Assembly: GCA_902769875.1 (NCBI GenBank)
Contig: CACXQV010000030.1
Location: forward strand, 1-48,771
Origin: an uncultured Bacteroidia bacterium
Lineage (GTDB): Bacteria; Bacteroidota; Bacteroidia; Bacteroidales; F082
Length of the DNA: 48,771 bases
Direction of reading: 5' to 3'
Made by a program: the position numbers and the translations under genes. Shown here in pieces: positions 5,016 through 31,561 of this stretch (positions within the stretch are counted from its first letter, which is position 1; each line of letters begins with the position of its first letter). The notes beneath the pieces are model-generated. The model was not told the origin of the DNA. It did not search any database and saw only the letters and a list, made by a program, of their open reading frames with translations.

Positions 5016-5045
5016 TTGCACCGATTGAAAAAAGTTGTACTTTTG
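5016..5045 (+). promoter_or_regulatory. Promoter of tRNA-Ala (TTG - 19 bp - TACTTTTG)
   Basis: TTG at 5016-5018 and TACTTTTG at 5038-5045 are separated by 19 bp, matching the Bacteroidota -33/-7 arrangement. The tRNA starts 15 bp downstream. Confidence 0.75.
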
Positions 5046-5060
5046 CAGCGTCAAAAGCAA

Positions 5061-5134
<74 letters not shown>

Positions 5135-5140
5135 CAAAAA

Positions 5141-5172
5141 ACCACCGCTGAAGTTTCGGCGGTGTTTTTTTT
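5141..5172 (+). terminator. Rho-independent terminator after tRNA-Ala
   Basis: CACCGC and GCGGTG form a stem followed by eight T residues (5165-5172), starting 7 bp after the tRNA. Confidence 0.85.
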
Positions 5173-5376
5173 GTCATTATCGCCACACATTCTGTAGTCT
5201 CTCAACTTCCAAATGCAATTTCTCAGGATTCTGGTTGACAAGTCTTTGCAAGTTGAAAAGTTTCCATTGGACGGAGGGCTTTGCCTGCGTTTTCACCATT
5301 TATTTGCCGAAATTTTTCTCTGGTATTCGTGATTTTTGCGAATTTGGAGAAAAATTTTAGGCAAATTCCCACATCA

Positions 5377-6969
5377 TTAGTTGGATTCGCGCAGCTCCTC
5401 CAACGCCCGCTGCAAAATCTCGTCCATCGGGGCATAGATGGGATAAAAAACCTCGTCATCGAAAAGGTTGCGGGCGATATAGGCCTTCAAAAGGATGTTT
5501 GCCTCGCGGCGAGCCACTTGCTTCTGTTCTTCCGTTCCCTTGATTTTTTTGGCGTCGGCTTGCTTCACCAACTCGTCGAACATCGCATCGCTCACCGCAA
5601 ACGAGCGGTCGAAAGCCGCCACGGTCTTGTATTGTTGCAGCTGCCGACGGTGACGGTCGGTATAGTCGAAGGCATACTGATAGAGCAAGCCTTGGTTGGC
5701 GATGCGATTGAAGTAATACTCAAGGCTGTCGTCGACGAGCGGCACATAGATGTCGGGCATAATGCCGCCACCGCCGTAAACGGTCTTTCCCTTCGGTGTG
5801 GTGAACTTCAGCGAGTCGGCGAAATGGATGCTGTCGGGATGGAACATCTCACCGTTGGTGTAACGGTCGAATGATTCGAACAAGTATTTTTCGCGGTCGC
5901 CATCGAAAGGCTTTTGGATGCAACGCCCGGTGGGTGTGTAATAACGCGCCACGGTGAGGCGGATGGCCGATTGGTCGCTGAGTATGATCTGCTCCTGCAC
6001 CAATCCCTTGCCGAATGAACGCCTTCCGATAATTGTGCCACGGTCGTTGTCTTGTATGGCACCTGCCACAATCTCGCTTGCGCTCGCCGACTCGCCATCG
6101 ATGAGCACAACCACGGGGATGCCTTCCAACATGCCACGACGGCGGGCCTTCATCTCTTGCCTTTGACGGTTGCGGCCTTCGGTGTAGACAATCATGCTGC
6201 CGCGTGGAAGGAATTCGTCGGAAATGTCGACGGCAGCGCTGAGATAGCCACCCGAATTGCCGCGAAGGTCGAAAACGAGTTGCTTCATGCCTTGCTTCAA
6301 CAAGCTGCGGATGCCTTTCTTGAACTCGTCGACGGTGGTGGCCGAGAATTTGCTGAGTTTCAGATAACCGATGTTTTCGTCGATCATATAGGCGATGTCG
6401 ACGCTATAGGTCGGGATGGCGGCACGAGTGATGGTGAAATCAATCAGGTCGTCAAAGCCACGGCGCAGTATTTTCACGCGCACCTTGGTGTTTTTCGGGC
6501 CTTTCAGCTTGCGCATCACGTCTTCGTTGGTCAGCTTTTTGCTTGCCACCAAAGAGTCGTCGACATAGATGATACGGTCGCCCGCCATGATACCCACTTT
6601 CTCCGACGGTCCTCCTTTGATGACGTTGACGACGGCGATAGTGTCTCGCTCCAAGCGGAACTGCACCCCAATACCATCAAAGCTGCCCATAAGTGGGTCG
6701 TTCACCTCATTGAACTCATCAAGCGAGACGTAAGCGCTGTGCGGGTCGAGCGCATACATCATCGCGGCGATGGCTTCGTCTTGCAGCTTGTCAGAGTCGG
6801 GCACATCGACATAGTCTTGGCCGACATACCACATCACCTCGTCGAACTTGCTTCCGCCTTCGACGTTGGCAGCCGGTCTGGTGACACCTTTATTAATATA
6901 GTGCCCCACCATCAGCCCGGCCAACACCAAAAAAACAATGACAATGGGTTTCGCCCTGTTCCTATCCAT
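5377..6969 (-). CDS. S41-family carboxyl-terminal processing protease (Ctp)
   Basis: A membrane-anchored periplasmic serine protease that trims or degrades envelope proteins. From the ATG at 6969 it is 530 residues. One N-terminal membrane segment lies at about 9-24, a PDZ domain at about 95-175 (GIGVQF...GDRIIYVDD), and the S41 core after it. The catalytic pair is S296 (GESASASE) and K321 (RSFGKG), spaced 25 residues as in Prc/CtpA. A GTG directly before the ATG (6972) could extend it by one residue; ATG is preferred. It starts 15 bp after the fabD stop, so the two are probably co-transcribed. The C-terminal part beyond about 420 is helical and not recognised. Its targets cannot be told from sequence. 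Confidence 0.93.
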   Translation of the reverse strand: MDRNRAKPIVIVFLVLAGLMVGHYINKGVTRPAANVEGGSKFDEVMWYVGQDYVDVPDSDKLQDEAIAAMMYALDPHSAYVSLDEFNEVNDPLMGSFDGIGVQFRLERDTIAVVNVIKGGPSEKVGIMAGDRIIYVDDSLVASKKLTNEDVMRKLKGPKNTKVRVKILRRGFDDLIDFTITRAAIPTYSVDIAYMIDENIGYLKLSKFSATTVDEFKKGIRSLLKQGMKQLVFDLRGNSGGYLSAAVDISDEFLPRGSMIVYTEGRNRQRQEMKARRRGMLEGIPVVVLIDGESASASEIVAGAIQDNDRGTIIGRRSFGKGLVQEQIILSDQSAIRLTVARYYTPTGRCIQKPFDGDREKYLFESFDRYTNGEMFHPDSIHFADSLKFTTPKGKTVYGGGGIMPDIYVPLVDDSLEYYFNRIANQGLLYQYAFDYTDRHRRQLQQYKTVAAFDRSFAVSDAMFDELVKQADAKKIKGTEEQKQVARREANILLKAYIARNLFDDEVFYPIYAPMDEILQRALEELRESN

Positions 6970-8929: not shown

Positions 8930-11608
8930 TTACTTTTTATTGTTGGAAATGAATGTATTGTATTCTTCCAAGTCTTTCGACTGATAGAAGACAGGATAGT
9001 TCTTGTTTGAGATTGGGATGATTGTGTATTTCGACTTGTCGATACCGCCAAAGACATAGTCGCCAAGGAACATGGAGGTGATGTAGTCTTCAGCCTTGCC
9101 CTCGTTTTCGAAGCTCCCTATGGTGACAAGGGTGCGGTTGTCATCCAAGACCACGTTCCTGACATTGAACGAGCGCGTGCGATGCTCTTTCTTGTTGAAG
9201 TCGCTGATGCGCACCATCAATGGGTCGATGCGGACACTCTTCGAGTCGCACACCACCATGACGAAATGCTCGACGTTGGGTTCGTATGTATAAGGTGCGG
9301 CTTTTTTCACTTCGGGTTGGTCGCCTGCTTCCTTGTTGTCGATTTCGGTCAGCACCATACCGAGTTGGTATTCCTCGTTCACCTCCTCAAGCACTCGTCG
9401 GGCGTATGGGGTGATGCTGCTTGTGGGATAGGTGCGCACCAAGTCATAAAGCGCGAAAGCCATCGTGTCGATAGCGACCAATCGGCCTTGTGCGACGGCG
9501 TGGAGGAAGGCGAAGCGCGGCATGAAAGCCGTGTCGGTCTCATAGAGCTTCATCGCCCGCTCGGCATTCATCTTCACGCGGTAGAATTGTCCCTGCTCAA
9601 AGGCCTCGTAAGTCTTGGAGTAGAAATCGGAGGCTTCTTTCTCTTGGGCTTCCAGTTTCTTGAAATAATCGGGGTCGTTGATGAACTCGGCGTAGCTTGA
9701 AGTGGGATACTTGTCGAAGATCTTTCCCTTGTAAACCAACGATTTCTCTTCGTTGGACAGGTCTTTGTACATTTTATACAATGCATACCAAGTGGGCAGT
9801 TCCTTCTCGTTGCCCGGATAGCGTGTGTCAAGCTCCTCGTATGATTCGATGGAGCGAGGCAGGTCGGCAAGGCGGTCCATATAGAGGAAGCCGAGGTGAT
9901 AGAGCCCGTCGGCGATGAGCGAGTCGCACACCTCTTTCTGTTCCATGGTGAAAGGCAGGTCGCGCAGGTAGTAGCCACGGTCGTGGTTGGTGTAGTTGGC
10001 GTTGATTGAGTCCTGCTTGGCTTTCGCGTTTTTGGCCTCGGTCAAGGCTTCATCGTCTTCTTCTTCGCCATTGATGGCATTGTTGAGGCTTTGCTTGTCG
10101 CTGATGCGCCAGTTGTCTTCGAGCTTACGCATGCCCCATTTTCGCGTGAATTCAGTGATGCCGCGCGAAACGGAAGATTGGTTGTAGAAATACCACGATG
10201 TGCCCGATGTCGTATTGGTTGGTTCCGACTTCTTCGCCTCGTCGCCGCCCACGGTCGAGCCCATCAGGGCCAGCTGTTCTTCATATTCGCGTTGCGCCTT
10301 TTCCATTTCCTCCTGCTCGATGACCTGAGCGATAATCTTGTCGATGAGCATATTGCGCGAGACGGAATCCATTGCCGCCACGCGCAGCAGGCTGTCTTGG
10401 TCGCGAACCGTGGAGGCATACATCACCAGTTCGTTCAGCGTCTGCGAAATGTTCATGATGCTGTCGTAGCCCTCGGTTTCGCGGGTCATGCTGGTGACGG
10501 CGGTATCGTAATAGGCTTGGGCCATTTCGTAGTTCATACGGTCGAAATACATCGTGGCCGCCTTGAGCGACGACTGGGCACGCTGTATTTGGTTGTCCTT
10601 GAAGGCCGACACCGACTTGCAGAGGTAGTTCAAGGCCTTGTTTTCGTCGCCTTCGCGAAGGGCCAATTCGGCCATGGCGTAATAGATACGGTCGCGGTAG
10701 TCATCGTTTTTCGTGTCGCGGAGCATCTTGTTCATCATCTTGTAGAGCTCTTTGGCATTGTCGGCTGAGCCCACCTTGGCGATGTTCATCCTCGACTCAA
10801 ATTCCATCTCGTAGACCGGGTTGCGTTTGATGACCTTTTTGAACTGGGCTGTAGCGCGTTCGGCGTCGTTTTGGTGCATATAGATTTGCCCCAAGATGAA
10901 CATCGCGCGGGTGCGCAAGTCGCGGTCCTTGTTGAACACGATGCCCGTCTTGAGGTAGCGCACGGCGTTGTTGTAGTCCTTGGTGGCGATGTAGTAGTCG
11001 GCAATGGTGAAGTCAAGGTTGCGTGCCAGCTCTTTGGGCAGCTTGGTCAAACCCGAAACCTTTGCCTGCAACTGCTCGATCATGGCGATGGCCTTGGGGT
11101 ATTCCTCGGTCTGGATGTAGGTCTTGATGAGCCACATGTTGGCCACATAGGCGATGTCGTTGTAGTTGAACTCCGTAGCCACAAAGTCGAAGGTGCGTTT
11201 GGCGGGTATGTAGTCCTGCTTGTAGAAATGCGCCTTGGCCATGACGAGGTAGGCATCGTCGATCCATCTCACCCTTTCGCGGCTGCCGAATTTCATCGAG
11301 TGTTTCTGCACGCAGATGGAAGTCTTTTCCAAAGCGCGGTCCATCACCGAGTTCATCGACATTCCGTTTTGCTTCGTTCCGTAATTATAGACGCGCAGCA
11401 CTTTCGAGTAGTCGTCTTTCACGGCTTCGCGCAGTTGCTTGTCGCCATCCTTGAGGCTCGCCTCGCCGTTGAAATAGACATTGTAGTGGCTGGTCAGGTT
11501 GTGGTACATACGACGGGTGAGCGTGTTTTTCTTGGTTGAGCAGCCAGTCATCAGCAGCAGCCCCATCACGCAGCCTATCGCAATGATTATGTTGGTTCTT
11601 TTATGCAC
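8930..11608 (-). CDS. sprE: T9SS/gliding TPR lipoprotein SprE/PorW
   Basis: 892 residues. The lipoprotein signal MHKRTNIIIAIGCVMGLLLM is followed by TGC (lipid-modified C23), then STKKNTLTRRMYHNLTSHYN, a segment typical of SprE/PorW. Tetratricopeptide-like helical repeats fill about 110-460 and 560-760. A low-complexity charged linker lies near 430-480. The C-terminal portion (about 790-890) is a small alpha/beta region. In Flavobacterium SprE and Porphyromonas PorW, this lipoprotein is needed for T9SS function and connects the outer-membrane SprA/Sov translocon with the PorL-PorM motor. SprA is encoded 21 kb away in this window. Sixty-five bp separate it from the upstream pseudokinase gene. 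Confidence 0.88.
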   Translation of the reverse strand: MHKRTNIIIAIGCVMGLLLMTGCSTKKNTLTRRMYHNLTSHYNVYFNGEASLKDGDKQLREAVKDDYSKVLRVYNYGTKQNGMSMNSVMDRALEKTSICVQKHSMKFGSRERVRWIDDAYLVMAKAHFYKQDYIPAKRTFDFVATEFNYNDIAYVANMWLIKTYIQTEEYPKAIAMIEQLQAKVSGLTKLPKELARNLDFTIADYYIATKDYNNAVRYLKTGIVFNKDRDLRTRAMFILGQIYMHQNDAERATAQFKKVIKRNPVYEMEFESRMNIAKVGSADNAKELYKMMNKMLRDTKNDDYRDRIYYAMAELALREGDENKALNYLCKSVSAFKDNQIQRAQSSLKAATMYFDRMNYEMAQAYYDTAVTSMTRETEGYDSIMNISQTLNELVMYASTVRDQDSLLRVAAMDSVSRNMLIDKIIAQVIEQEEMEKAQREYEEQLALMGSTVGGDEAKKSEPTNTTSGTSWYFYNQSSVSRGITEFTRKWGMRKLEDNWRISDKQSLNNAINGEEEDDEALTEAKNAKAKQDSINANYTNHDRGYYLRDLPFTMEQKEVCDSLIADGLYHLGFLYMDRLADLPRSIESYEELDTRYPGNEKELPTWYALYKMYKDLSNEEKSLVYKGKIFDKYPTSSYAEFINDPDYFKKLEAQEKEASDFYSKTYEAFEQGQFYRVKMNAERAMKLYETDTAFMPRFAFLHAVAQGRLVAIDTMAFALYDLVRTYPTSSITPYARRVLEEVNEEYQLGMVLTEIDNKEAGDQPEVKKAAPYTYEPNVEHFVMVVCDSKSVRIDPLMVRISDFNKKEHRTRSFNVRNVVLDDNRTLVTIGSFENEGKAEDYITSMFLGDYVFGGIDKSKYTIIPISNKNYPVFYQSKDLEEYNTFISNNKK

Positions 11609-11673
11609 TTCGTTGTAGTTTTATAAGCAATAACTCCAATTTGCGCGTATTATTTCAGGCTTGGGAAGAAAAG

Positions 11674-12870
11674 TCACTGGCGGTTTTCGTACCATTTACG
11701 GGCCTCGTTGAGCAATTCGGCATCAGTGGGATCGGCCAAGCCCTTGCGCAAGGCCACGGCTATGCTGTCGTTGGTCGACTTGAACTCGTTGAGCAGCAGT
11801 TGGTCGAAGTCGGCTTGGCGGCTTTCGGCGATGGCTTCGCTCTGGTCGTGCAAGGCTTTCATTGCCTTTCCACGGTAGTTGTCCATCGTGAGGTAGCGCA
11901 TCAGGTTCTCGGCCATCTCGAGGCTGTCTTCCGACCAGTCCACTGCAATGGGCTCGGAGAGCGAAGTCAGATGGTATTTCTCGCAGAGGTCTGGCGTAGC
12001 AGCCTGCATCCTCTCGATTTCGTGGGCGAAGTCCACTTCGAGCCTTTCGCGGCGTTCCTTCTCCACGTTGGCCCTGATTTTCGGGATGTAGATGACGGCC
12101 AGCGCCCCAACCACCACCGCTACGACTGCCAAAACGATGATTTTCACGAAAGAATGGCCTTTGCTGATGGCCGATCGCACATCACTTATAGTGTCGAAGC
12201 GCTGTTCTTTCGAGAACTGGGTGCTGTGTGTGGCCGCGTTATGGAACTGTTTGGAAATATTGCGTTGCCCGATGAATTCCATGATCTTTCCCAAGGAGTA
12301 AATGTCGGCGCGGGCATCATAGTCCTCGCCCTTGATGATTTCGGGCGCGACGAATTCCATCTCCTTGATAAGCAGCTCACGGTCAGCGTCTTGCCGCGTT
12401 TCGGGCACACCGATGTCGATGAGCTTGACACGATAGTCGTTGGCCGTCACAAGGATGTTTTCAGGGTTGAGGTTGCAATGCACGAGGCCGTTGCGGTGGA
12501 GGTAGTACAAGGCGTCGCAAACCTCGGTGAGGATGCTTTTCACCTGTTTCTCGGAAAGCGTTCCCACCCTCACATGCTCTGATAGGGGTTTGCCTTCGAG
12601 GTACTCGAAAATGATGCAATCGCCCAAGCCTTCAATTTTCACGAAATCCAAAGCCTTGCGGATATATTTGTTGTCGAGCATCGAGGTGGTGTCAAATTCC
12701 TGTTTCAGCGATGCACGGCAGGCGGCATCATCGGCGCACTCGGCCTTCAAGGCCTTGACAATGACTTTCTTGCCTCCGAATCTTGCCGTAAAAACCCGAC
12801 TGTTGCCGTAGCGCGAGGTGTGCAACGGACGAATGTCGGTGAAATCGGTTGAGAAATTGTTTTCTGACAT
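11674..12870 (-). CDS. Membrane-anchored Ser/Thr kinase-like protein, probable pseudokinase
   Basis: 398 residues. Residues 15-235 have a protein-kinase fold: an ATP-lysine candidate K39 (VIVKAL), hinge FEYLEGKPL, catalytic loop HCNLNPEN at 131-138, DIG at 152-154 and APE at 175-177. The catalytic loop normally reads HRDLKPEN. Here both the base Asp (N133) and the Lys (N135) are replaced by Asn, and the glycine loop is poor, so catalysis is doubtful. One membrane segment lies at about 242-262, followed by a charged, helical extracytoplasmic region (265-398). A TATATTTG promoter element lies 21 bp upstream. It heads the group leading into sprE, bactofilin and folE, so a regulatory or scaffolding role in the envelope is inferred. 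Confidence 0.82.
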   Translation of the reverse strand: MSENNFSTDFTDIRPLHTSRYGNSRVFTARFGGKKVIVKALKAECADDAACRASLKQEFDTTSMLDNKYIRKALDFVKIEGLGDCIIFEYLEGKPLSEHVRVGTLSEKQVKSILTEVCDALYYLHRNGLVHCNLNPENILVTANDYRVKLIDIGVPETRQDADRELLIKEMEFVAPEIIKGEDYDARADIYSLGKIMEFIGQRNISKQFHNAATHSTQFSKEQRFDTISDVRSAISKGHSFVKIIVLAVVAVVVGALAVIYIPKIRANVEKERRERLEVDFAHEIERMQAATPDLCEKYHLTSLSEPIAVDWSEDSLEMAENLMRYLTMDNYRGKAMKALHDQSEAIAESRQADFDQLLLNEFKSTNDSIAVALRKGLADPTDAELLNEARKWYENRQ

Positions 12871-12890
12871 TCTTCATTGATATTTGGGCG

Positions 12891-12898
12891 CAAATATA
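12891..12898 (-). promoter_or_regulatory. Bacteroidota -7 element TATATTTG, start of the pseudokinase-sprE group
   Basis: The minus strand reads TATATTTG 20 bp before the ATG at 12870, the expected distance for a short leader. No other promoter of this form was seen in the short gaps further down the group. Confidence 0.6.
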
Positions 12899-12963
12899 GT
12901 TCATTTTTCCGAACCTACGGCAAAATGGTCTGGAAAAAGAGTTTTTGGCGGAAAAGTGACGGC

Positions 12964-13611
12964 CTATTTCGCCTCATCGAGGCTTCCGGCGAGCGGAATG
13001 TCGTTGTTGATGAGATAAATTTCTGCCTTTAGGTCAAGCGGTCCCTGAGCCTGTCGAAGGGCCGCTGGACAAAACTTCTTCAGATTCCTGTAAACCGTCC
13101 TGATTTCCGCCCGCGAAACCTTGGGCAGCATGTTCGTCCAAAAGACGAGCACGGTGTAGTCGGCCTCCACTTTGATTTCGGGGAAAATGGCTTGCAAATC
13201 AGCGCGTTTTAGCGTATACCCGTCCAAAGCGACGGATGATCGAGGCGGAAACACATCGAACTGGTGGTCGTAGTTCCAATTCAGGTTGAAGCCAAGCGTG
13301 GGCGGACAGTAGCAGTTGATGTGGAACGAAACAAGGCTGTCGCCGTGGAAATACATGATTTTCAGCGGCTGGGCGAGGTCTTTCATCTGCATCGAGTCCG
13401 CGCCGAGTCCGCTCACTTGCCAAAACTGTTTTTCGTCGCACACCAAGGGCGTAAACTCAAAGTCATTGGGCTGTTTCTTGTAGAATTTCTCGCATTGCTC
13501 TGCATCGTAGCCGTTGATTTCGCGGAAGCCGAAGAGCAAGGGAGCCAGCGTGTTGCAACTGGAAAGGGCGAGCAAAACCGCCGCAATCACAATAACCAAC
13601 ATTCTTCGCAT
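12964..13611 (-). CDS. Small lipoprotein with thioredoxin-like fold lacking CxxC
   Basis: 215 residues. The signal MRRMLVIVIAAVLLALSSC gives a lipidated C19. The middle and end (DYTVLVFWTNMLPKVSR, then KAEIYLINND) resemble a thioredoxin-like domain in which the usual WCxxC is WTNML, so it should not be redox active. I do not recognise the family. It starts 7 bp after the KilA-N stop. Residues about 181-192 (ALRQAQGPLDLK) are encoded by an interspersed repeat (13033-13070), which suggests an in-frame insertion. A second, CxxC-containing thioredoxin-like lipoprotein lies at 15372-16106. Confidence 0.65.
   Translation of the reverse strand: MRRMLVIVIAAVLLALSSCNTLAPLLFGFREINGYDAEQCEKFYKKQPNDFEFTPLVCDEKQFWQVSGLGADSMQMKDLAQPLKIMYFHGDSLVSFHINCYCPPTLGFNLNWNYDHQFDVFPPRSSVALDGYTLKRADLQAIFPEIKVEADYTVLVFWTNMLPKVSRAEIRTVYRNLKKFCPAALRQAQGPLDLKAEIYLINNDIPLAGSLDEAK
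13033..13070. repeat. Interspersed palindromic element with TGAGCCTGTCGAA core, inside a gene
   Basis: AGCGGTCCCT and AGGGCCGCT can pair around the core TGAGCCTGTCGAA (13046-13058). The reverse complement of the 13-nt core recurs exactly at 22023-22035 inside the sigma-54 activator gene. Both reading frames stay open. Confidence 0.55.
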
Positions 13612-24736: not shown

Positions 24737-25633
24737 ATGGCAAAAAAAGAAGAATTCAAAGTTGATACTGGTGAAAACAAAACCGAAATCACTGAAAGTA
24801 AGCCTGTCTGCGGAATAATAATGCCTATCTCTGCAATTGATGGTTGTTCAAGAGAGCATTGGAAAGAAGTTAAGGATATTATTTCTGAAGCTATTAGCGC
24901 TTCTGGTTATGAGCCAAATCTAGTAAGCAATGCAGATGACAGTGGTATTATCCAACAACGAATAATCCAAAACCTATATAACAATGACATTGTAGTTTGT
25001 GATGTTAGCGGTAAAAACCCAAATGTAATGTTCGAATTAGGTATGCGTTTGGCATTTGACAAACCAACGATTATTATTATTGATGATAAAACAGATTATT
25101 CTTTTGATACATCACCAATTGAACATTTGTCATATCCACGTGATTTGAAATATTACGACATTCTAAAATTCAAAGATCAATTAAAAACAAAGATTGTTGC
25201 TACAATTGAAAAAGCTAAAAATGATCCCCATTACACAACATTTCTGAAAAACTTTGGCGAATTTGAAGTTGCACATGTTGAAAAAAAAGCAGGTTCTATC
25301 GATGAGGTAATACTTTCCAGATTAGATAATTTGAGTCAACAAGTACAACGATTAAACAGAACATCCCCTCCAAGCATAAGGCAACCATTTGAAGATATTA
25401 AAACAGATGATGAATTTGAGATCCTACAGAGAGTTCACAGAGGAATTAGCAAATTCATCGAAGAAACTGGTATCTCGATGATAGAATTAATTGACAATAA
25501 AAACAATGAAAGGCGTACTCTTCAATCATATCTAGAAAATGATCAAGATTTATGTATGATGTGTAGATACGAAAGAGTAATGCAAAAAGCAATCAACGGA
25601 GTGCTTTCTTTTTATGAGGAAACTAAAAAATAG
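24737..25633 (+). CDS. Nucleoside-deoxyribosyltransferase/TIR-like domain protein
   Basis: 298 residues. Residues about 22-150 form an alpha/beta domain with the signature NDIVVCDVSGKNPNVMFELG (83-102), containing the candidate catalytic E100. A strand then follows (KPTIIIIDD). This pattern (aDivi.DvS..NPNV.yElG) is that of nucleoside 2-deoxyribosyltransferase-like domains, seen among other places in retron and other immune effectors. The C-terminal half is helical with a coiled coil (about 190-215) and no recognised domain. The DNA is clearly AT-richer than its neighbours, which suggests transfer. No reverse transcriptase or partner gene is adjacent. A substrate such as nucleotide or NAD cannot be assigned. 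Confidence 0.7.
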   Translation: MAKKEEFKVDTGENKTEITESKPVCGIIMPISAIDGCSREHWKEVKDIISEAISASGYEPNLVSNADDSGIIQQRIIQNLYNNDIVVCDVSGKNPNVMFELGMRLAFDKPTIIIIDDKTDYSFDTSPIEHLSYPRDLKYYDILKFKDQLKTKIVATIEKAKNDPHYTTFLKNFGEFEVAHVEKKAGSIDEVILSRLDNLSQQVQRLNRTSPPSIRQPFEDIKTDDEFEILQRVHRGISKFIEETGISMIELIDNKNNERRTLQSYLENDQDLCMMCRYERVMQKAINGVLSFYEETKK

Positions 25634-25730: not shown

Positions 25731-28700
25731 TTATTTCCCTTCAGCCAGCCTCTTATACCCCTCATAGCGGAGTTTAGCAAACTGCTCGGTCTTGGCGAAC
25801 AGTTCCTTGGCTTCCTCGGGGAAGGTCTTCAGCAGTGAGTTGTAACGGACTTCACCCATAATGAAGTTCTGGAAGTCGGCCCAGTTGGGTTCCTTCGAAT
25901 CCAAGTGGAAGCCGTTCTCGCCAGCGTCTTCCTCGGCGGGGTTGAAGCGCCAGAGGTGCCAGTAACCGCAGTCGACGGCGAGCTTCTCTTCGTGCTGGGT
26001 GCGACCCATGCCAGTCTTGATGCCGTGGTTGATACACGGGGCGTAGCAGATCACCAACGACGGGCCCGGATAAGCCTCGGCTTCCTTGATGGCCTTGAAA
26101 TACTGGGCTTGCGAAGCACCCATGGCGACTTGAGCCACATAGACATAGCCGTAGCTCTTGGCAATCATGCCGAGGTCTTTCTTGCGGACCTTCTTACCAG
26201 AGGCGGCAAACTTGGCGACAGCACCAGCAGGCGTAGCCTTCGAGGACTGACCGCCCGTGTTCGAGTAAACCTCGGTGTCGAGGACGAGGACGTTGACGTC
26301 TTCGCCGCTGGCCAGCACGTGGTCAAGGCCACCGAAACCGATGTCGTAAGCCCAACCGTCGCCACCGAAGATCCACTGGCTACGCTTGGCCAAGAAGTCC
26401 TTCTGGCCGAGCAGTTCGCTCTCGAGTGCGCAACCGTGGCAGGGGCAAATCTTGCTGCCCGCAGCCTTGGCGTCCTTGGCCTCTTGCAACTTCTGGGCGG
26501 CCACTTCGGCACCGTAGAGTTCCTTGCCTTGTCCGTTCCAGAAATCAACGCAAGCATCGATAGGCATAATGGCCTTTTCGAGGGCGACGATGAATTCATC
26601 AGTAGCCTTGCGGTTGGCGATGGTGTCGTTGTAGGTGTTCAGCCAATTCTGCGTGGCTTCCTTCATCCAGTCGAAGACGGTGGTGTTCACCAATTCTTCA
26701 GCCTTCTTGCGGAGGCCTTCGCGAATCTTGCTGTAACCCGTGGCCATACCGAGACCAAACTCGGCGTTGTCCTCAAACAATGAGTTGGCCCAAGCCACGC
26801 CCTTGCCCGAGCGGTTGTTCTTGCAATAAGGCGTTGCGGGAGCCGAACCGCCGTAGATGGACGAGCAACCTGTGGCGTTGGCCACCATCATACTCTCACC
26901 AAAGAGTTGGGTGATGGTCTTGATGTAAGGCGTTTCGCCGCAGCCGGCGCAGGCACCCGAGAACTCGAACAGCGGCTGTGCAAACTGGCTGTTCTTCACG
27001 TTGGCGTACTTGTCGATGAGTTCATCCTTGTAGGTGACTTTCTTCTGGCTGTATTCCCAGTTTTCGGTTTCGCCAAGCTGGCTTTCGAACGGTTTCATCA
27101 CGAGGGCTTTTTCCTTGGCGGGGCACACATCGGCGCAGTTGCCGCAACCCGTGCAGTCCATAACGGAGACCTGCATACGGAAGTTCATGCCGGCCATTTC
27201 CTTGGGCATCTTCATCTCCACGGCCTTCATCGAGGCGGGAGCGTTCTTCATTTCCTCGGCGGTCATCACGACGGGGCGGATAGCAGCGTGAGGGCAAACC
27301 AACGAGCACTGGTTGCACTGGATACAATTGGCAGCATTCCATTCGGGAACGTAGGTGGCCACACCGCGCTTTTCGTAAGCCGTGGTACCAGCCGGGAAGG
27401 TGCCATCGATGATGTCCTTGAAGGCGCTCACAGGCAGGTCGTTGCCGCATTGGGCCACCATCGGGCGCATCACCTTATTAATAAACTCGGGGTCGTTGTC
27501 GTTGTGCTCGAAAGCGAAGTCGGTCGTGCAAGGCAGTTCGGCCCACTCGGCGGGGATTTCCACCTTCGTGATTTCGCCACCACGGTCGACGGCGGCATAG
27601 TTCATATTGACGACATCCTCACCCTTCTTGCCGTAGCTCTTCACGATGAACTTCTTCATCTGCTCGACAGCGAGGTCGTAAGGAATGACACCCGAAATCT
27701 TGAAAAATGCGCTCTGGAGGATGGTGTTGGTGCGGTTGCCCAAGCCAATCTCGGCGGCAATCTTCGTGGCATCGATGATGTACATATTAATATGGTGCAA
27801 GGCCAAATACTTCTTCACGAAGTCGGGCAGGTGGTGCTTGGTTTCCTCAACATCCCAAGGCGAGTTGTAAAGGAAGGTACCGTTGTCCTTCAGGCCGCGC
27901 AGGCAGTCGTACTTGCGGAGGTAACTCGGCACGTGGACAGCCACGAAGTCGGGCGTACCGACGAGGTAAGGAGCCAGGATGGGCTGGTCGCCGAAACGCA
28001 GGTGCGAGCAGGTGTAGCCGCCCGATTTCTTCGAGTCGTAGTCGAAGTAGGCTTGGCTGTATTTGTTGGTGTTGTCGCCGATAATCTTGATGGAGTTCTT
28101 GTTGGCACCCACCGTACCGTCAGCGCCAAGGCCGTAGAATTTGGCCTCGAAGGTGCCCTTCGGCAGGATGCTGATTTCGGGCAGCAGCGGCAATGAACGG
28201 TGTGTCACGTCGTCGTTGATGCCGACGGTGAACTGGTTCATCGGGTTCTCGCTGGCGAGGTTGTTGAACACGCTCATAATATGGGCGGGAGTGGTGTCCT
28301 TCGAAGACAGACCATAACGGCCACCGATAATCATCGGCTTGTTGGCAGCCGGGATGTCCTTGCAGTTGGCGAAGGCTTCGACGACATCCAGATACAGCGG
28401 GTCGCCATTGGCGCCGGGCTCCTTTGTACGGTCGAGGACGCAGATGCGCTTGACGGTCTCAGGCAGTACTTGGCCGAGGTACTTCACGCTGAAGGGGCGA
28501 TAGAGGTGTACGCTGACGAGGCCGAGTTTCTTGCCGTTGGCGTTCTCACGGTCGATGACGGTCTTGATGACATCGGTGATGGAACCCATAGCAATGATAA
28601 CGTCGGTGGCATCGGGAGCGCCGTAGAAGGTGAACGGGGCGTAGTTGCGGCCCGTAATCTTGCTCATTTCCTTCATATACTTGGCCACGATGTCGGGCAG

Positions 28701-29357
28701 AGCGTCATAATACTTGTTCTGCGCCTCGCGGGTCTGGAAGTAGATGTCGGGGTTTTGGGCAGTGCCACGGGTTACGGGGTGTTCGGGGTTCAAGGCTCTG
28801 TCGCGGTATTCCTTCAGGGCTTCCCAGTTGACCAACGGACGGAGGGCTTCCATATCGGCAGCCTCAACTTTCTGGATTTCGTGGGAGGTGCGGAAACCGT
28901 CGAAGAAGTGCAGGAAAGGCACGCGGCCTTCGATGGCGGCCAAATGTGCCACGGGAGCGAGGTCCATAATTTCTTGCACCGAACCGGTGGCAAGCATAGC
29001 GAAGCCCGTCTGACGGGCACTCATCACGTCGGCGTGGTCGCCGAAAATGGACAAGGCTTGGGCGGCAAGGGCACGGGCCGAAACGTGGAACACGCCCGGA
29101 AGCAACTCACCGGCAATCTTGTACATATTGGGGATCATCAGCAAGAGACCTTGCGAGGCGGTGTAGGTGGTGGTGAGGGCACCAGCCTGCAACGAGCCGT
29201 GAACGGCACCGGCGGCACCGGCTTCGGATTGCATCTCGACGACCTTAACAGTCTCGCCAAAGAGGTTCTTCTGACCTTTGGCAGCCCATTCATCGATATA
29301 CTCGGCCATCGGCGACGACGGAGTGATAGGATAAATGGCGGCCACTTCACTGAACAT
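25731..29357 (-). CDS. nifJ: Pyruvate:ferredoxin (flavodoxin) oxidoreductase, N-terminus apparently truncated
   Basis: Oxidises pyruvate to acetyl-CoA and CO2, reducing ferredoxin. The 1208 residues span the pyruvate-binding domain (YPITPSSPMAEY at 9-20), CoA and gamma domains, two 4Fe-4S motifs (CIQCNQCSLVCPHAAI and CTGCGNCADVCPAKEK), and the thiamine-diphosphate domain (GACAGCGETPYIK, GGDGWAYDIGFGGLDHV). The odd point is the start. Homologues begin about 20 residues earlier with a segment ending in H-x-AYMFSEV. Here the codons just before the ATG still read IHNAY, but a TGA pair lies 8 codons upstream and no in-frame start exists. No promoter element is seen in the 60-bp gap to the nuclease-like gene. 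Activity of the shortened product is uncertain. Confidence 0.93.
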   Translation of the reverse strand: MFSEVAAIYPITPSSPMAEYIDEWAAKGQKNLFGETVKVVEMQSEAGAAGAVHGSLQAGALTTTYTASQGLLLMIPNMYKIAGELLPGVFHVSARALAAQALSIFGDHADVMSARQTGFAMLATGSVQEIMDLAPVAHLAAIEGRVPFLHFFDGFRTSHEIQKVEAADMEALRPLVNWEALKEYRDRALNPEHPVTRGTAQNPDIYFQTREAQNKYYDALPDIVAKYMKEMSKITGRNYAPFTFYGAPDATDVIIAMGSITDVIKTVIDRENANGKKLGLVSVHLYRPFSVKYLGQVLPETVKRICVLDRTKEPGANGDPLYLDVVEAFANCKDIPAANKPMIIGGRYGLSSKDTTPAHIMSVFNNLASENPMNQFTVGINDDVTHRSLPLLPEISILPKGTFEAKFYGLGADGTVGANKNSIKIIGDNTNKYSQAYFDYDSKKSGGYTCSHLRFGDQPILAPYLVGTPDFVAVHVPSYLRKYDCLRGLKDNGTFLYNSPWDVEETKHHLPDFVKKYLALHHINMYIIDATKIAAEIGLGNRTNTILQSAFFKISGVIPYDLAVEQMKKFIVKSYGKKGEDVVNMNYAAVDRGGEITKVEIPAEWAELPCTTDFAFEHNDNDPEFINKVMRPMVAQCGNDLPVSAFKDIIDGTFPAGTTAYEKRGVATYVPEWNAANCIQCNQCSLVCPHAAIRPVVMTAEEMKNAPASMKAVEMKMPKEMAGMNFRMQVSVMDCTGCGNCADVCPAKEKALVMKPFESQLGETENWEYSQKKVTYKDELIDKYANVKNSQFAQPLFEFSGACAGCGETPYIKTITQLFGESMMVANATGCSSIYGGSAPATPYCKNNRSGKGVAWANSLFEDNAEFGLGMATGYSKIREGLRKKAEELVNTTVFDWMKEATQNWLNTYNDTIANRKATDEFIVALEKAIMPIDACVDFWNGQGKELYGAEVAAQKLQEAKDAKAAGSKICPCHGCALESELLGQKDFLAKRSQWIFGGDGWAYDIGFGGLDHVLASGEDVNVLVLDTEVYSNTGGQSSKATPAGAVAKFAASGKKVRKKDLGMIAKSYGYVYVAQVAMGASQAQYFKAIKEAEAYPGPSLVICYAPCINHGIKTGMGRTQHEEKLAVDCGYWHLWRFNPAEEDAGENGFHLDSKEPNWADFQNFIMGEVRYNSLLKTFPEEAKELFAKTEQFAKLRYEGYKRLAEGK

Positions 29358-29417
29358 GTAGGCATTATGTATTTTGTTCTTTCATCAGTTTTCTATTCAA
29401 TATTTCATTCTGCCCAA

Positions 29418-30002
29418 TTAAAAACGAACCTCCCTTTCGAAACTCAAGCCCACCCCATTATTTGACAACGCAAACATAAGCATCATATTTTGTTCCAACG
29501 CTGACACACGAGGGAATTTTTCCGACACAATAATATGGCAAATCACATTCACCTTCTTAATAAAATCTATTGCAACTTTTTCATCTTTGAGTTTATCAGA
29601 GAACAAATCTAATGCTGCCGATAATTGGCTTGCTGCTTTTGTGTATGTTCCTTCTATGGCTTCAGACGTGTGGCCTTGTGCTTGGTCTTTAAACTCCAAA
29701 AAAGCGAATTTGTTTTCATCAAATGCGGCTCCGTCTGCCATTCCGCCCTGTCGTTGCTTAATGAGTTTCTTATCAAGAGGCAAAACCACGATTTCGTTTC
29801 GATTCGGATTAAAACAAACACAACAACGTGAAGCATCTTCTGTAGCAGTAGAAATATGGGTACATTCCTCATCATCCACAACCATTATTTGGTCATTGCG
29901 CGATATTTCGATGCAATCAAGGACTCCTGGATTGTATCCCTTGAAGGCACTGACCAGTTTAAGCCTCTTCACAGCGTTTGGTATGTATCCTATTGATGTC
30001 AT
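29418..30002 (-). CDS. Small protein with possible PD-(D/E)xK nuclease core, partner of AAA15 ATPase
   Basis: 194 residues, no signal peptide. I do not recognise the family. Residues 86-105 (GGMADGAAFDENKFAFLEFK) resemble a PD-(D/E)xK active site: D90, then a strand ending in E103-x-K105. A helix with SQLSAALDLF follows, as in many such nucleases. A C-rich strand (RCCVCF, 59-64) precedes the core. The ATG overlaps the ATPase stop by 4 bp (29999-30002), implying translational coupling and probably a complex. With the ATPase it resembles the two-gene logic of Septu and PARIS-type defence, but those partners are HNH or TOPRIM proteins. Nuclease function is inference. Confidence 0.6.
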   Translation of the reverse strand: MTSIGYIPNAVKRLKLVSAFKGYNPGVLDCIEISRNDQIMVVDDEECTHISTATEDASRCCVCFNPNRNEIVVLPLDKKLIKQRQGGMADGAAFDENKFAFLEFKDQAQGHTSEAIEGTYTKAASQLSAALDLFSDKLKDEKVAIDFIKKVNVICHIIVSEKFPRVSALEQNMMLMFALSNNGVGLSFEREVRF

Positions 30003-31171
30003 TTCTTGAGCGTTTTCAGGTAAAGCTGATACAACTTGTTGAAATCAGAACCAATGGCATCCGATACCACATCAAGATAATTGACGGAAACTATTCCTGT
30101 CTTGTCGTCTTTAATAGACTCACAATAGTTCTCGCCACCAAGTGAAAACACAGACACTTCAGCACTATCTACACGGAATTGTGGCGGGACAACACTATCA
30201 ACTTCCTCTTTGTAATCATCTGATTTTGATAATTTTGCGGCCAGCATACTTACGTTCAACGCAGAAAGCAAATACGGGCTGTGCGTATTGATGATAATAG
30301 TACAATCCTTTTTGTGCTGTGACAGTCTGATAATCCTATTCAAGACCTCTCGTTGGTTGGTCGGGAACAGGTTTTGCTCGGGTTCTTCTATTACAAAAGA
30401 TTCAAAACCACTATCTTCCCTTGCATAATCAAGAACCATCAACAAAGGTAATGCAGATTGAATCCCCGACGAGCAAGCCTCCAATGGAAGGTGCTTCTCG
30501 GAATTCTCCAAAAGGGATATACATTCATTGCCAAAATCCCTGTTGTATTTCACTCCCAAAAACGAGGCATCATAAGTCGCGTAATGATTCCTTGCCCTTT
30601 CAAAAAAAGACATAAACTCAATTAGCGTATTGGGCAGTGGAACTTTTGACACAAGAATGTTTGCCAAAGATGAAGCAACAGCCCCTGTCAGGTTTCGTTC
30701 GGCAGGAATATAACAGGCGAGTCGCAAATATGCCCTCAAATAGTTGAGGTTTTTTGCCAATAGCCTATCTCCCTGAAGTTTATCTATGTCTAATCCAAGT
30801 TTTACCAGTTCCTTCTTCGCCGCAATACCGATTAAAGCCTTGCAAAAATTACTTGTATCCTCGGACTTCACGTCTTTGACAGATACAGAAAACACCCCTT
30901 TGTCAAATGTGATATGAACTTCATCCCTCCAGTGATAGTTGATGATTGTATCTGGTTGGAAACAACTCTCAATACCGATTTTCCGGAACGCCTCCATTGG
31001 ATTATCATTATCGCATACCTTGAGCCACCAGTACACATCGGAAAGCACAGTCAGCAGTTTTGCAATGGTGCTTTTCCCCGACCCTTGGGGGCCGATGAAT
31101 ACCATTAGTTTCGACAATTCTATGTCAACATCCTTTACCGGACCAAAGTTATGTATTTTAATACAATCCAT
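29999..31171 (-). CDS. AAA15-family (OLD/ABC-type) ATPase
   Basis: 390 residues. Walker A GPQGSGKST at 27-35, the family segment CYIPAERNL near 153-161, ABC-like signature ACSSGIQSALPLLM at 232-245, Walker B FVIEEPEQNLFP at 259-270 and the H-loop NTHSPYLLSALN at 295-306. This is the MukB/SMC-like arrangement of single-domain AAA15 ATPases; no TOPRIM domain is fused (unlike OLD nucleases). The partner gene overlaps its stop. The pair lies between a broken RhuM-like gene and PFOR, in DNA AT-richer than PFOR, as expected of acquired accessory genes. An anti-phage or other self-versus-foreign role is inferred. Confidence 0.88.
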   Translation of the reverse strand: MDCIKIHNFGPVKDVDIELSKLMVFIGPQGSGKSTIAKLLTVLSDVYWWLKVCDNDNPMEAFRKIGIESCFQPDTIINYHWRDEVHITFDKGVFSVSVKDVKSEDTSNFCKALIGIAAKKELVKLGLDIDKLQGDRLLAKNLNYLRAYLRLACYIPAERNLTGAVASSLANILVSKVPLPNTLIEFMSFFERARNHYATYDASFLGVKYNRDFGNECISLLENSEKHLPLEACSSGIQSALPLLMVLDYAREDSGFESFVIEEPEQNLFPTNQREVLNRIIRLSQHKKDCTIIINTHSPYLLSALNVSMLAAKLSKSDDYKEEVDSVVPPQFRVDSAEVSVFSLGGENYCESIKDDKTGIVSVNYLDVVSDAIGSDFNKLYQLYLKTLKK

Positions 31172-31198: not shown

Positions 31199-31508
31199 CT
31201 ATTTCAACTTGTCATCCGAATGGAATTGGACATCACAATCTGTGATTTCCAAATTTCCATTTTCGATCTTGAACCGTTGCAGTTTTTGCAACAGTTGCCA
31301 CTCTTGTAAGCTCACCCTCAGCATAAATAATGCGTAAATGGCGAGATATGACCGACCTATCCCTATCAAACAGCATAGCAAGTTGATTAAGTGTCAACCA
31401 AACCGTTTCATCCGCCACCTGCACATCCAATTGCACGACGCCGTCGTTGCTCTTGTAAACAACAATGGACTCGTCAGAAGGTTGATATAGGCTCAAGTTG
31501 CTATTCAT
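31199..31508 (-). pseudogene. RhuM-like protein remnant (N-terminal fragment)
   Basis: From MNSNLSLYQPSDESIVVYKS the frame reads VQLDVQVADETVWLTLNQLA, then MLFDRDRSVISRHLRIIYAE, the N-terminal helix-turn-helix part of RhuM/virulence-type proteins. The reading stops at 31233. A shift of frame near 31262 would add about 20 residues to 31199. The rest of the usual protein of about 330 residues is absent. A promoter element TAATTTTG (31554-31561, minus) lies 46 bp upstream. Such genes are frequent in mobile and defence regions, which fits the neighbouring ATPase pair. Confidence 0.65.
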
Positions 31509-31553
31509 TGATATACATCGAAATACCTTTTTTGCAGTCAAAATTATTGACCG

Positions 31554-31561
31554 CAAAATTA
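31554..31561 (-). promoter_or_regulatory. Bacteroidota -7 element TAATTTTG for the RhuM-like remnant
   Basis: TAATTTTG on the minus strand. The 13-bp unit GCAAAATTAGGCC is partly repeated beside it (31553-31577). It may now drive the ATPase pair. Confidence 0.45.

Follow-up and report, generated by a model that had tools for sequence, protein, structure and literature searches.

Layout of the gene pair and predicted products

We analyzed a 48,771-nucleotide contig (GenBank CACXQV010000030.1, assembly GCA_902769875.1), hereafter the window, from an uncultured gut bacterium of the Bacteroidia, order Bacteroidales, and within it a pair of minus-strand genes, A and B, predicted to encode an ATPase and a small nuclease-like partner (Table 1). 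A first-pass annotation, made from the sequence alone, had described these genes as a candidate new defense pair lying in AT-richer DNA, with the stop of A overlapping the start of B. The open reading frames of the window agree with this layout, the two genes sharing an ATGA, and the G+C content is 41.2% for the pair compared to 51.2% for the whole window.

The product of gene A gave as its best Pfam match PF13175 AAA_15 (E-value 8.8e-25), and its best PADLOC model out of 113 models was PDC-M29A (9e-45), followed by AriA (2.8e-26). The Walker A, ABC-like signature, Walker B and H-loop motifs had been called complete, and this reading holds across homologues: residues K33, R159, G236, E262, E263 and H297 are all retained in 47 of 47 aligned rows, E262 and E263 opening an EEPE at residues 262–265. 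The absence of a fused TOPRIM was likewise confirmed, as none of the 15 Pfam families listed at E-values up to 10 for A is a TOPRIM. The predicted structure of A had a mean predicted local distance difference test score (pLDDT) of 77, and its top PDB neighbors by Foldseek were PtuA, retron PtuA, AriA and Rad50; the matches include 8eea and 8v47, both among the top ones, as well as Rad50 and SMC chains. Based on these fold neighbors and on what is known of the family, rather than on a tree, A can be placed provisionally in the OLD family.

For gene B, the residues D90 and E103-x-K105 and a following helix had been put forward as signs of a PD-(D/E)xK nuclease. The residues are present and are kept in homologues, but in the lone sequence they are no better than chance: D-x(8-20)-E-x-K occurred in 47% of shuffled versions of B and its [DE] form in 70%, and the motif in the single sequence was therefore rejected as evidence. 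What takes the motif beyond chance is an alignment of B with its counterparts from 46 other loci, 47 partners in all, in which E103 and K105 are invariant and conservation extends to N65, D77, D90 and Q126 (Table 1). The fold check proposed in the first-pass annotation was carried out on B; the predicted model (pLDDT 89) shows a strand-strand-strand-helix-strand order around the motif, as in PD-(D/E)xK proteins, and contains the expected helix after the motif at residues 113–139. Fold matches of this model in the PDB were mainly to PD-(D/E)xK nucleases, mostly DNA nucleases, yet weak; 33 of the 50 VIA rows of the fold search are nucleases that we take to have the PD-(D/E)xK fold. No match to B was found in the Pfam or NCBIfam family searches, and no TOPRIM or HNH model matched in Pfam, PADLOC or NCBIfam. 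The only PADLOC match was a weak one to Cas4_II (0.0045, residues 37–113, spanning the motif), and a profile search of PDB sequences returned chance-looking matches, the best being an APC5 subunit at 0.0077. The alignment, the fold model and the PDB matches support the earlier description of an ATPase coupled to a PD-(D/E)xK-type partner, and suggest that B has both the motif, as judged from the 47-row alignment, and the fold, for which the fold search alone is weak.

Table 1. Coordinates of the gene pair, its conserved residues and the surrounding variable stretch (positions in the window).
Feature	Position	Strand	Remarks
Gene A, AAA_15 / OLD-like ABC ATPase, proposed sensor	29999..31171	-	390 residues; PF13175, PDC-M29A, model, dN/dS
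Gene B, PD-(D/E)xK-type nuclease (predicted), proposed effector	29418..30002	-	194 residues
ATGA overlap, A stop / B start	29999..30002	-	4 nucleotides shared
A Walker A GPQGSGKS, residues 27–34	31070..31093	-	K33, S34 in 47/47 rows
A ABC signature-like SSGIQ, residues 234–238	30458..30472	-	G236 in 47/47 rows; S235, Q238 in 46/47
A Walker B FVIEE, residues 259–263	30383..30397	-	E262, E263 in 47/47 rows
A H-loop H297	30281..30283	-	47/47 rows
B N65, conserved residue	29808..29810	-	45/47 rows
B D77, conserved acidic residue N-terminal to motif	29772..29774	-	45/47 rows
B D90, motif II aspartate	29733..29735	-	D in 45/47 rows, E in 2/47
B E103-F-K105, motif III	29688..29696	-	E and K in 47/47 rows
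B Q126, on helix after motif	29625..29627	-	46/47 rows; model helix 113–139
Stretch without counterpart in L120 and L122	29365..31553	.	between PFOR-like and lipoprotein-like genes
RhuM-like fragment (PDC-S05 kind), same variable stretch	31233..31556	-	107 residues; PADLOC PDC-S05 9.1e-27

Distribution and pairing of the two genes

The pair has a patchy distribution. With the B protein as query, homologues were found in 3 of 60 related genomes and in 6 of 393 genomes of the order; a nine-row B profile (alignment A1) raised the number for the order to 24 and found 21 among 395 genomes of the phylum. Each of these counts includes the window's own genome. Within the genus, 2 of 35 genomes carry the pair besides the window's own. 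B's own sequence found no relatives among viral contigs, plasmids and phages. Searching with other queries brought in further relatives, both from genome contigs and from viral contigs, phages and plasmids, although two such queries matched nothing. The 47-partner alignment leaves out L001, six duplicates (L030–L034 and L053) and L052, a weak match to B (E-value 5e-5) whose 3-kb locus showed no ATPase. A 47-row set of A/B pairs has five rows swapped relative to this alignment and leaves out 5 of 52 rows, those in which A is short, split or missing (L007, L010, L024, L035 and L036). In the pair set, B of the window is 94% identical to that of L002, 38% to that of L004 and 13–26% to the others. 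Close copies, as judged by identity in A, are present in the uncultured Bacteroidia metagenome-assembled genomes RUG11504 (99%) and RUG13092 (94%), the prefix presumably denoting rumen, and in a Bacteroidales metagenome-assembled genome (92%). Three small partners recovered from the collections of viral contigs and phages (L133, L134 and L135) also carry the residue signature of B. The L134 protein was missed at 1e-3 both by the nine-row profile and by PDC-M29B, and was taken as a partner because of its place and its likeness to the partner in L133.

The ATPase adjoins B on the same strand in 45 of 46 partner loci, the one exception (L035) being a locus that starts at a contig edge. Of the 45 homologous loci, 24 show a 4-nucleotide overlap when the start of B is set by script as the ATG nearest the A stop, a rule that favors short overlaps. 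A is in two pieces in L010 and L024, and B of L036 is interrupted by an in-frame TGA. Distances in A and B co-vary, with a correlation of 0.83 over 47 pairs that was reached in none of 2000 permutations. Both genes are under purifying selection, the ratio of nonsynonymous to synonymous substitution rates (dN/dS) calculated from the window pair and three close copies being 0.10–0.19 for A and 0.14–0.26 for B. An ATPase tree from a quick method joins the window to L002 of genome G018, inside a starred group of 19 rows that includes L133, L134 and L135. The pair of L003, from the same genus as the window, falls in the other large ATPase clade together with the plasmid copy L136, a position that fits horizontal spread.

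The site of the pair and its neighbors in the window

Homology of the flanking DNA to related genomes ends at window position 29364 and picks up again at 31554 (L122), 31560 (L120) or 31648 (L119), and the pair is absent from all three at this site. This presence-absence pattern reads as an insertion of the pair between genes that we named PFOR-like and lipoprotein-like by eye, without a family search. Four further relatives that were fetched (L123–L126) did not show this junction. The first-pass annotation had noted a broken RhuM-like gene beside the pair. This is borne out, as the 107-residue piece has a longer relative of 307 residues (58% identity over 98 residues) that occupies the same position in a different species (L121:3221-4144). 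The cargo of that site (L121:3221-6092) comprises the RhuM-like gene and two other open reading frames, one for a protein that is WG-repeat-like and one that may encode an NYN-domain protein, the names other than RhuM being given by eye.

Several side observations concern the other flank. The PFOR-like gene of the window (25731-29357, minus strand) is without the N-terminal stretch seen in the L128 copy (9867-13559), and approximately 112 nucleotides found between this gene and the pair in G018 are missing from the window; these differences could represent either a deletion or an assembly fault. Across the PFOR-like gene from the pair lies a TIR- or deoxyribosyltransferase-like gene (24737-25633, plus strand, 298 residues) that matches a PADLOC TIR effector at 2.5e-8 and Pfam PF05014 at 2.6e-4, below the curated cut-off. 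No counterpart of this gene was found in L099, the window's own site in G018.

Genomic context of related pairs

We sampled 20 stretches around homologues (L099–L118), of which 19 were counted, L099 being the window's own site in G018. Defense genes were found near the pair in at least 6 of the 19 (L100, L109, L111, L116, L117 and L118), 4 of these 6 containing type I restriction-modification (RM) genes; the number is a lower bound because only neighbors resembling defense genes were scanned singly. The pair is flanked on both sides by type I RM genes in L111 and L116, adjoins hsdR and a RhuM gene in L117, adjoins hsdM in L118, and lies between a DrmD-like helicase (2.9e-207) and a type III methylase (5.4e-221) in L100, while L109 contains a HEC-01B-like ATPase nearby (3e-201). 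No defense genes were seen by eye in the other 13 stretches. The defense role that had been proposed for the pair is thus backed by the context of part of its relatives, and the neighbor tabulation suggested earlier shows that homologues are not confined to housekeeping surroundings. At a threshold of 1e-12, 125 neighbor proteins (from the 19 stretches plus L131) matched 277 PADLOC families, versus 8 for 101 control proteins from 14 same-contig stretches, 13 of which yielded proteins; the 277 families go back to a small number of genes, matched by many models that overlap. The neighbor lists omit A, B and proteins of less than 110 or at least 1500 residues, and three L132 proteins of 128 were dropped.

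Pairs on mobile elements also have a defense or viral setting. The pair on a Persicobacter plasmid (L136) matches PDC-M29A (5.7e-147) and PDC-M29B (5.7e-48) over near the full model length, and is situated directly upstream of type III Mod and Res and downstream of a gene matching Orf5/HEC-06/SspE that we take to be DUF262/GmrSD-like. All genes of this plasmid cluster (L136:2554-11386, plus strand) run in the same direction. In the viral contigs L133 and L134, the pair adjoins a gene that is repressor-like by eye.

Two further observations were made in the sampled stretches. At 5018-6834 on its minus strand, near the intact pair, L100 carries another PDC-M29A-like ATPase (3.7e-29) together with a partner of 221 residues. 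Where E-x-K would be expected, this partner may have D-x-C, possibly the mark of a degenerate nuclease. In L105, L106 and L110, from three genomes with one genus code, the pair adjoins a gene that is lysyl-tRNA synthetase-like by eye, perhaps due to a shared integration spot or to vertical descent.

Relationship to known systems

The pair had initially been compared with Septu and PARIS only. That comparison stands insofar as the partners in those systems are unlike B: the ATPases of PARIS (AriAB) and Septu (PtuAB) are related in fold to A, whereas AriB is a TOPRIM protein and PtuB an HNH protein, and B fits no model of either kind, so that we did not assign the window pair to PARIS or Septu. 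The comparison overlooked PDC-M29, WonAB and PD-T4-4, and the pair is not new in the sense first proposed, since PDC-M29A is its best PADLOC match and WonAB and PD-T4-4 share its architecture.

PDC-M29, a PADLOC-DB 2023 candidate, has the same gene order as the window pair, and in the window A and B are adjacent with a 4-nucleotide overlap. All eight rows of an ATPase alignment (A2) match PDC-M29A at 0.001; of the nine homologous partners of alignment A1, searched at E-values up to 10, six match the PDC-M29B model PDLC04563 (best 2.1e-17) and three the PDC-M29B model PDLC04564 (best 4.6e-8). B of the window matches neither model at E-values up to 10, and in the ATPase tree the window and plasmid L136, whose pair matches both A and B models, belong to different large clades. 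Because B has no PDC-M29B match, the window pair is filed as PDC-M29-related rather than as PDC-M29. The term 'PDC-M29' was not found in the literature text that was searched.

WonAB, an OLD-ABC ATPase with a PD-(D/E)xK nuclease from a Vibrio prophage, has been tested experimentally (PMC12137116). Protection requires both genes, the ATPase motifs and WonB K71, and is abolished by changing WonA R182; overproduction of WonB is toxic only with active WonA, and the outcome is growth arrest with translation blocked and DNA intact (PMC12137116). A second account agrees (PMC12409358). Relatives named by the authors are 'OLD-ABC ATPase + Novel REase' (Krishnan 2020) and PD-T4-4, the wider family being termed as yet uncharacterized (PMC12137116). 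WonAB resembles the window pair in architecture, motif set and operon order; B of the window may have a different length and a different target. The viral-contig copies L133 and L134, with partners of 139–142 residues, bear the signature of the window's family, and when residue numbers are set side by side, K33, R175, E292, H327 and B K67 of L134 stand next to K34, R182, E300 and H333 of WonA and K71 of WonB. By spacing, the invariant R159 of A may correspond to WonA R182.

PD-T4-4, from an integrative and conjugative element-like element of E. coli, and 'OLD-ABC ATPase + Novel REase' also combine an ATPase with a PD-(D/E)xK partner, as in the window (PMC12137116, PMC10952713, PMC9519451), PD-T4-4 being listed with PF13175 and PD(D/E)XK (PMC10952713). 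The window ATPase scores 3e-16 to PD-T4-4_A compared to 9e-45 to PDC-M29A; no PD-T4-4_B match to B was found in PADLOC, where the presence of that model in the library is unconfirmed. With its ATPase motifs, the lack of a fused nuclease, and the motif and predicted fold of B, the window pair falls within the class 'OLD-ABC ATPase + PD-(D/E)xK'.

Proposed function

We consider the two genes to be a real pair and very probably a defense pair, of a known kind and representing a divergent member related to PDC-M29. The reading that we favor, and regard as probable, is that of an anti-phage module that belongs to the class 'OLD-type ABC ATPase + PD-(D/E)xK nuclease' and acts by abortive infection. 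In such a module, A would work as an ATP-bound dimer that senses an infection cue, and B would be a small metal-dependent nuclease held and activated by A. Activated B would then cut nucleic acid, RNA more likely than the genome, and cell growth would stop before phage are made. The dimer, sensing, activation, RNA target and growth arrest are proposed by analogy with WonAB, and with PARIS and Septu where tRNA is concerned.

It is possible, though we think it unlikely, that B instead acts as a DNase, in which case the pair would be a DNA-cutting module, restriction-like or serving as a back-up, often for neighboring restriction systems. The location of copies within or next to RM genes of types I and III and the predominance of DNA nucleases among the fold matches of B would be consistent with this role, as would the report that OLD-ABC ATPases with PD-(D/E)XK or other nucleases are back-up effectors in BREX loci (PMC12839542); on the other side, the relative WonAB spares chromosomal DNA and blocks translation (PMC12137116), and no RM genes were seen next to the window copy among the open reading frames read. 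That copies recur within or next to type I and type III RM genes also leads to a doubtful but distinct proposal, that the pair guards restriction systems, with A sensing restriction inhibition or an anti-restriction protein and unleashing an RNA-cutting B whose active site would include N65 and D77. To our knowledge, an active-site geometry including these two residues has not been described for the PD-(D/E)xK fold.

The tight gene overlap and the presence-absence at one site could also be expected of a toxin-antitoxin-like module that stabilizes mobile elements, in which A would restrain B without a direct anti-phage role. We hold this to be improbable, since WonA is required for WonB toxicity (PMC12137116), which argues against simple sequestration, and since the related ATPases of PARIS and Septu belong to systems that act against phage. 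A role of the pair in housekeeping DNA repair, like that of RecF or Rad50, as might be suggested by the Rad50 and SMC chains among the PDB matches of A and by the many sampled copies among housekeeping-looking genes, is very improbable given the patchy distribution within the genus and order, the empty sites in relatives, and the RM and viral contexts.

Under our favored reading of an abortive-infection module, the pair anchors, within Bacteroidia, a divergent and uncharacterized branch of immune pairs made up of an ATPase and a nuclease, the latter being missed by the PADLOC models tried. The signature N65, D77, D90, E103-x-K105 and Q126 provides a handle for testing which cue the sensors respond to and whether the target is RNA or DNA, and the copies that adjoin RM genes or are carried by a plasmid or by viral contigs provide a test set for the same questions.
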